Positions 3,577 through 43,023 of a stretch of 64,000 bases of DNA are shown here, in pieces. Every line of letters starts with the position of its first letter. Within the stretch, counting starts at the first letter, position 1. A program made the position numbers and the translations under genes. Origin of the DNA: Pusillimonas sp. MFBS29 (GTDB lineage Bacteria > Pseudomonadota > Gammaproteobacteria > Burkholderiales > Burkholderiaceae_B); the NCBI RefSeq assembly GCF_020687695.1, contig NZ_JAJEWL010000001.1:62001-126000 (forward strand). The letters are read 5' to 3'. Under the pieces are notes generated by a model. That model worked only from the letters and a program-made list of their open reading frames with translations, did no database searches and was not told the origin of the DNA.

Positions 3577-3597
3577 TTGCGGTTGCTGTCATTACAC

Positions 3598-3815
3598 AGA
3601 GTGGGAGAGTGCCGGTTTTCGGCCACCGAAGGCGCAATTCGCCCAGAATCGCTCAGGTTCCCCGTACCGCTCGTGTATTGTTGTTTCGTTCCTGAAATTG
3701 CAGGGCAGCACTCTGGAGAGACCCGCAATACCTGACAGCATGGTTGGCGGGCGCCGAAGGTGAACACCCGCAAGCTCGGGCTAACTCTCAGGCAAAAGGA
3801 CAGAAGGGCGGTGCT
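3598..3815 (+). promoter_or_regulatory. Tandem glycine riboswitch upstream of gcvT
   Basis: Two consecutive aptamers of the glycine riboswitch class can be read. Aptamer 1 has GGGAGAG (3603-3609), CACCGAAGGCGCAA (3624-3637) and CTCAGGT (3652-3658). The linker ACTCTGGAGAG (3710-3720) is the usual junction between the two aptamers. Aptamer 2 has GGAGAG (3715-3720), GCGCCGAAGG (3751-3760) and CTCTCAGGCAAAAGGACAG (3785-3803). The element fills most of the 371-bp gap between yhiN and gcvT. Members of the class bind glycine and commonly turn on glycine cleavage genes, which fits the position here. Confidence 0.93.
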
Positions 3816-17471: not shown

Positions 17472-18161
17472 ATGAGCAGCCCGAATTCAACTCCGCAAGC
17501 GCCACGATTCACCCGTCGCATGAGCATGCTTGACCGAGCGCTCGCCGAGGCCGGTCGTGCCGTACGGGTGCTCGAAGGTTCGGTGCAGGCCGGCCGCGCC
17601 AATCCGGCAGGCGCCCGTAAGTCACTCACTGACAACGCTGAAGAGCTGACGCCTGCCGAGCAAAAACACGTCGCCGGCCTGATGCGGGTCAATCATGTGG
17701 GTGAAATCTGCGCGCAGGCTTTATACCGCGGGCAGGCCTTGTTTTGTCGCGATGCATCAATCGAGGCTGTGCTGCATCAGGCCGCGGCCGAAGAGGTCGA
17801 TCACCTGGTCTGGTGCCGTGACCGCCTGACCGAGTTGAACAGCCGGCCCAGCCTGCTTAACCCGCTCTGGTATGCCGGCTCCTTCTCGCTGGGGGTGCTG
17901 GCCAGTCGTGCCGGGGTCGGCAGAAATCTGGGGTTCATGGCCGAAACGGAAAGGCAGGTCGAGCAGCATCTGGACAAGCATCTTGCCGAACTGCCCAATG
18001 CTGATGCGCGTTCGCGCAGCATTGTCACGCAAATGCGAGATGACGAAATCACTCATCGCAATACTGCAGAAACCCACGGAGCGGAAACGCTGGCCAGGCC
18101 TGTGCAGCTTGCCATGCGATTCATGTCCAAAATCATGACGACTACCGCCTACCGCATCTGA
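17472..18161 (+). CDS. coq7: 2-polyprenyl-3-methyl-6-methoxy-1,4-benzoquinone monooxygenase
   Basis: A 229-residue di-iron hydroxylase of ubiquinone biosynthesis, which adds the C5 hydroxyl group at the membrane. The di-iron ligands are visible: [30 protein letters not shown] and [16 protein letters not shown]. The length matches bacterial Coq7. It follows the oxidase operon by 31 bp on the same strand, so a respiratory theme continues, though co-transcription is not proven. Confidence 0.95.
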
Positions 18162-18294
18162 TCGCAGGGCAGGAAGTTGTAACAATATGAGGCGCTAGGG
18201 TTAACGATTAAATACGCCGGAGCACTTTTGTGATTGGTAAAGTGCTAAAAAAACGACAAAACATGCTTGGTTACAGTTTTCTTCGACAATTATC
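18162..18294. other. Non-coding stretch with an inverted repeat
   Basis: No coding sequence is seen. AGCACTTT (18221-18228) and AAAGTGCT (18239-18246) form a perfect 8-bp inverted repeat with a 10-nt spacer, followed by seven A residues. In the + direction there is no T tract, so it is not a convincing terminator for coq7; it could be an operator or an A-rich upstream element for the following promoter. Confidence 0.4.
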
Positions 18295-18323
18295 TTGCAA
18301 CGCACCATCTGTTTATATACAAT
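18295..18323 (+). promoter_or_regulatory. Candidate promoter of the small RNA
   Basis: TTGCAA (18295-18300) and TACAAT (18318-18323) are separated by exactly 17 bp, with AT-rich sequence upstream. Transcription would start near 18330, immediately before the structured RNA. Confidence 0.65.
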
Positions 18324-18329
18324 TTAGTT

Positions 18330-18484
18330 ATCGGATGTCGAGACGTGATTGCAAAGGGAAAACCCTTGATCACCCAGGCTCAAGCTTAATCAGCTTTCGT
18401 AGCCCGACATGCCAAGGTTGTCTCCTCCACCCTCCTCCTTTGGTGGATTTAACCCGAGATCTCACGATCTCGGGTTTTTTTTTG
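18330..18484 (+). ncRNA. Candidate structured small RNA with anti-Shine-Dalgarno loop
   Basis: The 155-nt stretch has its own promoter and terminator and no convincing open frame. A closing stem ATGTCG (18335-18340)/CGACAT (18405-18410) encloses two hairpins: GTGAT/ATCAC (18345-18349, 18369-18373) continuing into AAGGG/CCCTT (18354-18358, 18363-18367), and GGCT/AGCC (18377-18380, 18401-18404) continuing into AAGCT/AGCTT (18382-18386, 18392-18396). This forms a three-way junction. A fourth hairpin, TCCACC (18426-18431)/GGTGGA (18442-18447), presents the loop CTCCTCCTTT, complementary to ribosome binding sites. The layout recalls CcsR/cuckoo-type C-rich-loop sRNAs, but identity is not established. 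Confidence 0.7.
18451..18483 (+). terminator. Rho-independent terminator of the small RNA
   Basis: AACCCGAGATC (18451-18461) pairs perfectly with GATCTCGGGTT (18466-18476) around the 4-nt loop TCAC, followed by an uninterrupted T tract to 18483. It is one of the strongest intrinsic terminators in the window and ends the candidate sRNA about 160 bp before the next gene. Confidence 0.95.
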
Positions 18485-18643
18485 CCTTTTTCAGCCTTTC
18501 TATCCTACAGTTGCACATGTGTCGTACGAGTAATTGCTGCGTAGCAAAAAGATACGTCTGACGCAATTGCTTACCGTTATTGGAGCAGTCTGCTTACAGG
18601 CACGGCACATAATATCAATGCATTCATTGTTCATAGGGATCGT

Positions 18644-19783
18644 GTGTTTTCTTCTCCTCTCTGGGAATCGTTTACCTGGTTTTATATTTGTGTCGTAGCG
18701 TTCATGGTGGGCGGGCTGATCGTTGCCTCCGAACGCTGGCACGGGGTATTTACAGGCGACTCTGATTTAAGCAAACCGCAGGCCTCTCACTCGCGGGCAA
18801 CGCCACGCGTGGGTGGGCTGGCTGTTGTGGCCGGCAGCCTTGCCGGGCTGCTGGTGCTCGGGCCCAGCAACATGACCCTGACCTGGCTGTGGCCCGTATT
18901 GTTCATTGCGGCCATGCCGGTATTCGTGGCGGGTTTGCTTGAAGACATCACCAAGGACGTAGGCGCGGGCAAGCGTCTGCTGGCCGCCTTCCTTTCGGCA
19001 GCGATTGCCTGGTGGCTGCTGGGTGGCGTATCGCGTGTGGGTTTGTCGTGGGCCGACACCATCCTGGCATTCTGGCCGGTATCCCTGCTGTTCACCATGA
19101 TCGCAGTGGGTGGCTGTACGCACGCACTGAATATTGTGGACGGCATGAATGGCCTGGCGGGCATGATAGCCACGCTCATGGCCTTGTCCCTGGCGCTGGT
19201 CGCCCTGCAGGTTCAGGATATTCCCATTTTCCTCATTTCAGCGGCATTGGCGTCTGCCACGCTGGGCTTCCTGGTCTGGAATTTCCCCTTCGGACGTGTT
19301 TTTCTGGGTGATGGCGGCGCCTATTTCCTGGGTTTCATGCTGGCTGAGCTTGCGGTGCAGCTGGTGGTGCGCAACCCCAGTGTTTCGCCGTTCTATGCGC
19401 TGGCTGTCTTGTTTTACCCGGTCTTCGAGACTTTGTTTTCCATCTGGCGTCGCCGTTTCAAGCGGGGCACGCCAGTCGACCAACCCGATGCGCTGCATTT
19501 GCATCAACTGGTTTTCCGGCGTCTGGTCCGTGTGACCTTCAGTCGTGACCGACGCCATGCGGTGCCGGCATTGTGTAATGCCATGACTTCACCCTATCTT
19601 TGGGTATTGGCATTGATAGGCCTGGTTCCGGCAACCATCTGGTGGGATAACGCCTGGATACTGTGCGCGAGCCTGGTGGCTTTTTCGTCTGCCTACCTTT
19701 GGCTGTATTCCCGCCTGGTTTCCTGGCGCCGTCCGTCGTGGTTATTGTTGCCCTCGTTAGGGCGAAACGACCACCGCAAATAG
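18644..19783 (+). CDS. WecA/MraY-family undecaprenyl-phosphate sugar-1-phosphate transferase
   Basis: A 379-residue polytopic glycosyltransferase of the GT4 (MraY/WecA) class that transfers a GlcNAc- or related sugar-1-phosphate to undecaprenyl phosphate to begin glycan assembly. Key motifs are TPRVGGLAVV, LLEDITKDVGAGKRL, NIVDGMNGLAG and FLGDGGAYFLG, plus the histidine box DALHLHQLVFRR. A GTG start is used. The 160 bp between the sRNA terminator and this start hold only a small hairpin (18534-18547). It is the first gene of the polysaccharide cluster and the probable initiating enzyme. Confidence 0.88.
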   Translation: MFSSPLWESFTWFYICVVAFMVGGLIVASERWHGVFTGDSDLSKPQASHSRATPRVGGLAVVAGSLAGLLVLGPSNMTLTWLWPVLFIAAMPVFVAGLLEDITKDVGAGKRLLAAFLSAAIAWWLLGGVSRVGLSWADTILAFWPVSLLFTMIAVGGCTHALNIVDGMNGLAGMIATLMALSLALVALQVQDIPIFLISAALASATLGFLVWNFPFGRVFLGDGGAYFLGFMLAELAVQLVVRNPSVSPFYALAVLFYPVFETLFSIWRRRFKRGTPVDQPDALHLHQLVFRRLVRVTFSRDRRHAVPALCNAMTSPYLWVLALIGLVPATIWWDNAWILCASLVAFSSAYLWLYSRLVSWRRPSWLLLPSLGRNDHRK

Positions 19784-42946: not shown

Positions 42947-43023
42947 TGGGGAATCGCCAAGCTGGTTAAGGCACTGGATTTTGATTCCAGCATGCGAAGG
43001 TTCGAATCCTTCTTCCCCAGCCA
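42947..43023 (+). tRNA. tRNA-Gln (anticodon TTG)
   Basis: A 7-bp acceptor stem TGGGGAA (42947-42953) pairs with TTCCCCA (43013-43019), with discriminator G and an encoded CCA (43021-43023). The D arm, anticodon stem CTGGA/TCCAG with loop TTTTGAT giving anticodon TTG, and the T arm GAAGGTTCGAATCCTTC are all visible. It lies between ispE and prs and may be on the same transcript. Confidence 0.97.

Follow-up and report, generated by a model that had tools for sequence, protein, structure and literature searches.

Organization of the locus

The window (the whole 64,000-nt stretch of Pusillimonas sp. MFBS29 DNA that was analysed) contains, between coq7 and a gene for a WecA-like glycosyltransferase that matches the NCBIfam wecA model only below its cut-off, a compact intergenic element (Table 1). 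An earlier note, made from the sequence alone, had described a promoter, a three-way junction, a C-rich hairpin, and a terminator; all four are present in the sequence, at 18295-18483, and folding agrees. In particular, a sigma-70-type promoter is followed by a three-way junction that folds at 18330-18413 with two hairpins inside its closing stem, by a C-rich hairpin having the loop CTCCTCCTTT (18432-18441), and by a terminator comprising an 11-bp stem (18451-18476) and a run of nine T (18475-18483). The length of the predicted transcript, 154 nt, fits the ~155 nt that the note had anticipated.

Folding of 18330-18486 (157 nt) yields −54.4 kcal/mol, with a z of −4.5 and none of 200 shuffles equal; the 5′ domain folded alone yields a z of −2.2, with 2 of 200 shuffles equal. 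The match to Rfam family RF02278 (E 1.8e-11 for the whole window) and the junction pairs that covary across relatives, both described below, place the structure beyond chance.

Two other RNA features were identified in the window: tandem glycine riboswitch aptamers at 3592-3813 (55.9 and 53.1 bits), located where an ORF encoding glycine-cleavage T-protein domains begins, and a tRNA gene at 42947-43020 (63.6 bits).

Table 1. Features of the coq7-glycosyltransferase intergenic region and its neighbours (window coordinates).
Feature	Position	Strand	Basis or remark
coq7, upstream neighbour, synteny marker	17472..18161	+	NF033656, 293 bits; PF03232
Putative PhaR/PhbF-type operator TC-TTGC-AAC-GCA-CCA	18293..18307	+	Overlaps −35; exact motif and matrix score
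Promoter TTGCAA-N17-TACAAT	18295..18323	+	Layout as in mapped S17 promoter TTGCAT-N17-TACTAT
sRNA gene, 154 nt, S17L-like full-length	18330..18483	+	Start placed by analogy (S17 starts 7 bp after −10)
5′ three-way-junction domain	18330..18418	+	Folding, covariance model R1, pair counts
Junction stem P1	18333-18340/18405-18413	+	
Junction stem P2	18345-18350/18368-18373, inner 18354-18358/18363-18367	+	
Junction stem P3	18377-18386/18392-18404	+	
Expected RNase E cleavage region, giving short form	18418..18419	+	Homology to S17S
Seed UUGUCUCC (S17 Site 1)	18418..18425	+	S17 literature; own-genome start-site matches
RF02278 Betaproteobacteria toxic sRNA, double-hairpin short form	18419..18483	+	67.6 bits, model 1-64/64
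Hairpin with anti-Shine-Dalgarno loop CUCCUCCUUU (S17 Site 2)	18426..18447	+	Sequence, fold, RF02278
Intrinsic terminator, 11-bp stem and nine T	18451..18483	+	
WecA-like glycosyltransferase family 4, downstream neighbour	18644..19783	+	PF00953, 103 bits

The sRNA is a member of RF02278 and an ortholog of S17/CT_433

A search of Rfam with Infernal, proposed in the earlier note as a check, matches the 3′ half of the element to RF02278 and the 5′ half to nothing. Specifically, cmscan aligns 18419-18483 with the full model, at a score well above the gathering cut-off of 50 bits, while weak matches to NmsRb, anti-hemB, SorY, and ncS16 are all under their cut-offs; NmsRb (RcoF1) of Neisseria, which has a similar layout, reaches 35.4 bits against a family cut-off of 52. 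The proposal of an independent sRNA having an anti-Shine-Dalgarno loop is supported by RF02278 and the fold. The sRNA is a member of RF02278 and an ortholog of Bordetella pertussis S17/CT_433, so it is not the new small RNA that had been suggested.

According to the portions of the S17/CT_433 reports covered here (PMC11722255, PMC12235514), S17 lies between coq7 and a glycosyltransferase gene, its promoter is TTGCAT-N17-TACTAT with transcription starting 7 bp downstream, and a stem followed by nine T forms its 3′ end. The RNA is described as Hfq-dependent, and RNase E shortens it from 190 nt to 67 nt. The full-length form is short-lived, with the short form the stronger repressor of the two, BP2158 is repressed through Site 1 pairing, and S17S is barely toxic in E. 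coli BL21. CT_433 is the same RNA as S17 and one of two hubs of the B. pertussis Hfq interactome (PMC11722255, PMC12235514). The window sRNA occupies the corresponding position between coq7 and a glycosyltransferase gene, and its sigma-A promoter, its probable start 7 bp on, its seed, loop, and terminator all align with the published description of S17. The two RNAs share the locus, the promoter hexamers with their spacing, a seed and a loop rich in C/U, nine T at the terminator, a short form akin to RF02278, and, as predicted for the window sRNA, the target classes (transporters, paa, mmsB); they differ in the leader, which is 89 nt in the window sRNA and 123 nt in S17.

RF02278 is present in 139 of the 151 genomes sampled from the window's family, and 118 of 138 family loci have a coq7-type motif upstream by a crude motif search. 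At the level of the order, 128 of 200 genomes have a match at E up to 0.001, which is above the cut-off in 75 of the 200. DNA similarity to 18290-18486 was found in 41 of 61 relatives overall and, within the family, in 35 of 37. The window genome has one RF02278 copy, in contrast to four in Burkholderia cenocepacia (ncS03, ncS05, ncS27, and ncS62), which share the 64-position RF02278 model, the two hairpins, and the anti-Shine-Dalgarno loop, and of which ncS27 is reported to be likewise processed; the 5′ junction of the window sRNA lies outside the Rfam model. Four genomes of other families of the order (G042, G204, G323, and G266) have six to nine matches with E no higher than 0.001, some of them below the score cut-off, a lineage-specific expansion. 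Within the family, G016 has two extra RF02278 copies elsewhere in its genome, the flanks of which are nearly identical, and G036 has one (L151, L152, and L154); these have no PhaR-type site and may be duplicated or mobile copies that are subject to different control.

The 5′ three-way junction is a conserved RNA domain

The sequence comparisons indicate that the 5′ junction is a conserved RNA domain that is absent from Rfam and appears to be new; the earlier note had not recognised a known family in this portion, and conservation and covariation are now added. RNAalifold detected almost no structure in an unguided alignment of 63 five-prime domains, the arms of which vary in length, and we therefore turned to a subset of 23 sequences, the window's own among them, and built a covariance model, R1, from it. 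In a plain MAFFT alignment of the 23 relatives (A1), 95.9% of cells are paired, and two-sided changes occur in 16 cells, versus 4.6 in shuffles (0 of 500 as high). These changes fall in P3 and one P2 pair, with none in the closing stem, and further pair types are no higher than in shuffles (225 of 500 as high).

When R1 was applied to the window together with 99 of 157 family loci, 85 of the 100 matched at E up to 0.05 (62 of 77 without the 23 training sequences), and the RF02278 core lies directly 3′ of the junction in all 85; the window domain, itself a training sequence, scores 93.5 bits. In the alignment of the 85 matches (A2), two-sided changes occur in 21 of 25 junction pairs, including four of the eight in the closing stem, which bears out the stem covariation in relatives that the earlier note had wished to see examined. 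The two-sided cells number 230, versus 59.8 (sd 6.6) in shuffles, and 95.0% of cells are paired, versus 34-54% with the partners slid; A2 was built to fit the structure and is biased in its favour, hence the slid controls and A1 alongside. The same outer stem closes in 10 of 10 sequences folded, the window's own included (z −3.1 to −0.1, only some individually significant), and is re-paired as UU/AA in three loci, two of them from Achromobacter, and as CC/GG in a fourth (L411). In the covered portions of the literature on CT_433 (PMC11722255, PMC12235514), one report describes only the 3′ region as well conserved beyond the closest species. The likeliest role of the junction would be to hold the 5′ end and to present the RNase E site.

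The junction could instead be an active sensor, riboswitch-like or RNase E-gated, with a nearly constitutive promoter and control exerted at processing. Such a role would accord with a junction that is conserved with covariation despite variable arm lengths, with the instability and weaker repression reported for the full-length form of S17, and with persistence of the domain in a PhaR-less genome (L130, 42.3 bits on R1). However, outside the stems only AAACG after P1, a GGGAAAA loop, and CUC/UAG of P3 are alike, the latter two change in more distant relatives, and in seven copies outside the family (L220, L221, L226, L232, L238, L242, and L244) the PhaR-type site precedes the core by only 25-62 nt, which allows little space for a leader. 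We consider a sensor unlikely; it can coexist with control by PhaR.

The promoter overlaps a putative PhaR/PhbF operator

The earlier note had taken TTGCAA for a plain −35 element; the hexamer stands as part of the promoter, but a PhaR-type operator that contains it had been overlooked. Specifically, the −35 element lies within TTGCAACGCACCA (18295-18307), the exact reverse complement of the PhbF motif TG[N]TGC[N]3GCAA. PhbF, a repressor of PHB synthesis in Herbaspirillum, is reported to protect a 24-bp site with this motif and to bind PHB granules; Sinorhizobium PhaR is reported to read YGCRNYGCR, and one of its phaP1 sites holds the identical 11-mer TTGCAACGCAC. The window genome encodes its own PhaR (TIGR01848, 160 bits versus a cut-off of 109) and has sites of the same kind upstream of its phasin gene, where TGTTGCGTCGCAACA and TTGTGCGATGCAGCA flank what, by eye, appears to be the promoter.

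Among 30 phasin upstream regions of 450 nt, taken from relatives in the family and the order, 29 contain TGCNNNGCA, versus 1 of 30 for a reversed control word, and 21 contain two such words 54-58 nt apart. We derived a scoring matrix solely from phasin promoters, using 57 TGCNNNGCA words selected for a typical flank, and set its threshold at the 99th percentile of one shuffle per locus. The window site scores 17.0, and 134 of 143 distinct family sRNA loci pass, compared with 17 of 143 control regions located 300-600 nt upstream and 7 of 142 located downstream. The nine loci under the threshold are the loci of three PhaR-lacking genomes, L151, L152, L154, L134, L091, and L150, of which the last two do contain TTGCNNNGCA yet score low. 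The word TCTTGC-RNY-GCA recurs at the −35 position even though the distance to the core ranges from ~60 to 245 nt. Outside the family, the site is present in 19 of the 25 best-scoring RF02278 copies, compared with 5 of 25 for the region farther upstream and 2 of 25 for the region downstream.

Three loci (L031, L033, and L095) have a second TTGCNNNGCA 55-57 nt upstream of the first, the spacing of the paired phasin sites. A second exact match to the PhbF motif in the window, TGCTGCGTAGCAA at 18536-18548, between the sRNA terminator and the wecA-like gene, was treated as chance, since downstream sequence passes the matrix in so few loci. A scan of named genomes returned at least 118 stretches, mostly chance matches, of which 8 of 118 carry an sRNA core nearby, two of them from Achromobacter; B. 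pertussis is absent from the 80 matches listed of the at least 118. The "common upstream motif" mentioned in the covered part of PMC5688073 may be the same operator.

The operator-type site is absent from sRNA loci of genomes lacking PhaR

PhaR (PF07879) is present in 137 of the 151 family genomes. The operator-type site is present in 132 of 134 PhaR-containing genomes (133 of 135 counting locus L149), a count that requires enough upstream sequence and leaves out one truncated locus and six extra-copy loci, and is present in none of the three sRNA-bearing genomes that lack PhaR (G082, G130, and G142; Fisher 2.4e-5, a value that rests on three events and ignores phylogeny). The three genomes represent three genera, each with other sampled members having both PhaR and the site, and one of these genera has two further members with neither PhaR nor the sRNA. 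Two of the three PhaR-lacking genomes keep the TCTTGC half of the site and have lost only the GCA half. The domain of the PHB synthase PhaC is also missing in G130 and G142, and is kept in G082; G142 is a 91%-complete draft, so that a gap in the assembly could account for the absence of PhaR. The exceptions among PhaR-containing genomes are G148, with one mismatch, and G110, with an intact site at −227 instead. PhaR is also absent from 11 of the 12 genomes without the sRNA, a joint absence that by itself says little because many of these are reduced genomes and six belong to one genus.

It is improbable, in our assessment, that this S17/RF02278 sRNA has its −35 motif read by another regulator with a similar palindrome, leaving PHB uninvolved. 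The sRNA sites read TCTTGC, with C before TTGC, whereas phasin sites usually read TGTTGC, with G there, and the known input in Bordetella is Bvg. Against another regulator are the derivation of the matrix from phasin promoters alone, the loss of the motif in the three PhaR-lacking genomes with TCTTGC retained in two, and the fit to the PhaR consensus: in 51 distinct strict promoters, the unselected positions agree with YGCRNYGCR, R and Y each being found in all 51.

Predicted targets are carbon importers and catabolic enzymes

In the window genome, the pattern GGAGACAAN{0,8}ATG (the reverse complement of the seed, followed by a start codon) occurs 37 times, versus 4 times for the pattern read backwards; part of this excess is expected, since GGAGACAA is itself a Shine-Dalgarno-like word. 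We examined 30 of the 37 places: 25 open an ORF of 90 aa, and five do not, one of these being the antisense of the sRNA itself. By Pfam search (E up to 1e-5), fifteen of the 25 ORFs encode solute-binding proteins (six TctC, three DctP, three Peripla_BP_6, and one each of NMT1_2, SBP_bac_3, and SBP_bac_5), all of which also pass E 1e-10; two encode a transporter and a permease; one has no Pfam match; and the remaining seven encode catabolic or related proteins (PaaB, an AMP-binding_C_2-containing AMP-binding protein, an acyl-CoA dehydrogenase, a protein of hydroxyisobutyrate-dehydrogenase type, an AMP ligase, a thiolase, and a hexapeptide protein). Control ORFs, 20 of the 44 long ORFs from places returned by an operator-pattern search of the same genome and not randomly drawn, include one solute-binding protein in 20, three uptake proteins in all, and five ORFs without a match (E up to 1e-10).

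Published S17 targets include 32 transporter-related genes or operons, paa genes, and mmsB (PMC11722255, PMC12235514, in part), and the targets predicted here are of the same classes. Surface-glycan or respiratory mRNAs, which the earlier note had suggested from the neighbouring genes, give way to transporters and catabolic genes as the predicted targets.

Discussion

Our analysis reveals an S17/CT_433 ortholog of family RF02278 that is, with good probability, controlled by the PHB-sensing repressor PhaR. When PHB is low, PhaR would sit on TTGCAACGCACCA over the −35 element and block RNA polymerase; under carbon excess, PHB granules would titrate PhaR, and the 154-nt RNA would be made. By comparison with relatives, this RNA would start with the conserved three-way junction, just after which RNase E, as published for S17, would cut to yield a stable ~65-nt double-hairpin form. 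With Hfq, again as published for S17, the seed UUGUCUCC and the C-rich loop would then cover GGAGACAA-type ribosome-binding sites and block translation. The seed matches point to solute-binding proteins of carboxylate, amino-acid, and peptide transporters and to enzymes of phenylacetate, valine, and acyl-CoA catabolism as the targets. The net effect would be a negative feedback, in which full carbon stores inhibit carbon import, and suggests that cells cease importing carbon once their stores are full.

Published observations bear on this model in both directions. The S17 promoter, PS17, is independent of BvgA, and its authors postulate an unknown repressor (PMC11722255, PMC12235514, in part), with which the model agrees; counting against it, S17 responds to the Bvg system, with no known PHB link. 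Burkholderia double-hairpin RNAs are reported to rise in glucose medium (ncS03 8.0 fold and ncS05 6.9 fold, each the highest value given for that RNA; ncS27 4.3 fold), all three of the homologues measured, and ncS27 is reported to rise more in biofilm (9.7 fold). A precedent is MmgR (alpha-r8) of Sinorhizobium meliloti, described as an Hfq-dependent sRNA with a PhaR (AniA) site at its promoter and repressed by PhaR; unlike the window sRNA, it is alphaproteobacterial, and the effect described for it concerns phasins and the amount of PHB rather than carbon import, the likeness being one of description. No link of RF02278 or S17 to PhaR was found in the covered portions of PMC11722255, PMC12542648, PMC5688073, PMC4603805, and PMC7011215 or, likewise, in those of PMC10987360, PMC8401924, PMC12235514, PMC11332829, and PMC3206438, the broader PhaR literature being covered in part.

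Two further readings concern the nature of the RNA itself. A dual-function RNA with a small protein encoded in its 5′ part is suggested by the ORF noted in S17 (32 residues, in the portion of the literature covered) and by GGATG, which opens an MS(K/R)RDCKGK-like frame in many relatives; however, the phases from ATG to core are distributed 22/19/29 among 70 sequences, the stops are scattered, and the 5-nt leader ATCGG before the ATG has no Shine-Dalgarno sequence. The reading frame is not kept, and we reject the small protein as very unlikely. In the window, 18335-18361 reads MSRRDCKGK, many relatives have MSKRDCKGK-like sequences, and the frame is lost further on.

CCUCC in a C-rich loop, which is present here, is a hallmark of the CcsR/cuckoo group, but the comparison made with that group is not borne out and is very unlikely to hold: RF02278 spans the whole 3′ half at 67.6 bits, and none of the 8 Rfam families matched at E up to 5 bears that name.

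What merits attention is the control of this sRNA and its leader, the sRNA itself being of known type. The leader conservation, the PhaR-type operator, and the seed matches at start sites of carbon uptake and catabolism genes appear to be new here; the covered portions of the S17/CT_433 literature (PMC11722255, PMC12235514) name neither a PhaR site nor a conserved junction. S17/CT_433 is described, in the reports as covered, as a central B. pertussis regulatory hub with stress control still to be determined, and the literature covered names no transcriptional regulator of the "toxic" RF02278 RNAs. The putative PhaR operator offers RF02278 promoters a concrete signal, carbon storage, which would explain the list of importer and catabolic-enzyme targets. 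The parallel with PhaR and MmgR in rhizobia suggests that control of sRNAs by the storage repressor recurs. In bioplastic producers, if the model is true, this sRNA would put a brake on carbon uptake. Across Burkholderiales, it seems likely that the PHB-storage regulon has its RNA arm in the RF02278 sRNAs: titration of PhaR by PHB granules would free an sRNA that silences import and catabolism, PhaR would be the missing repressor of S17, and the window's family would deliver this RNA through a conserved junction leader.
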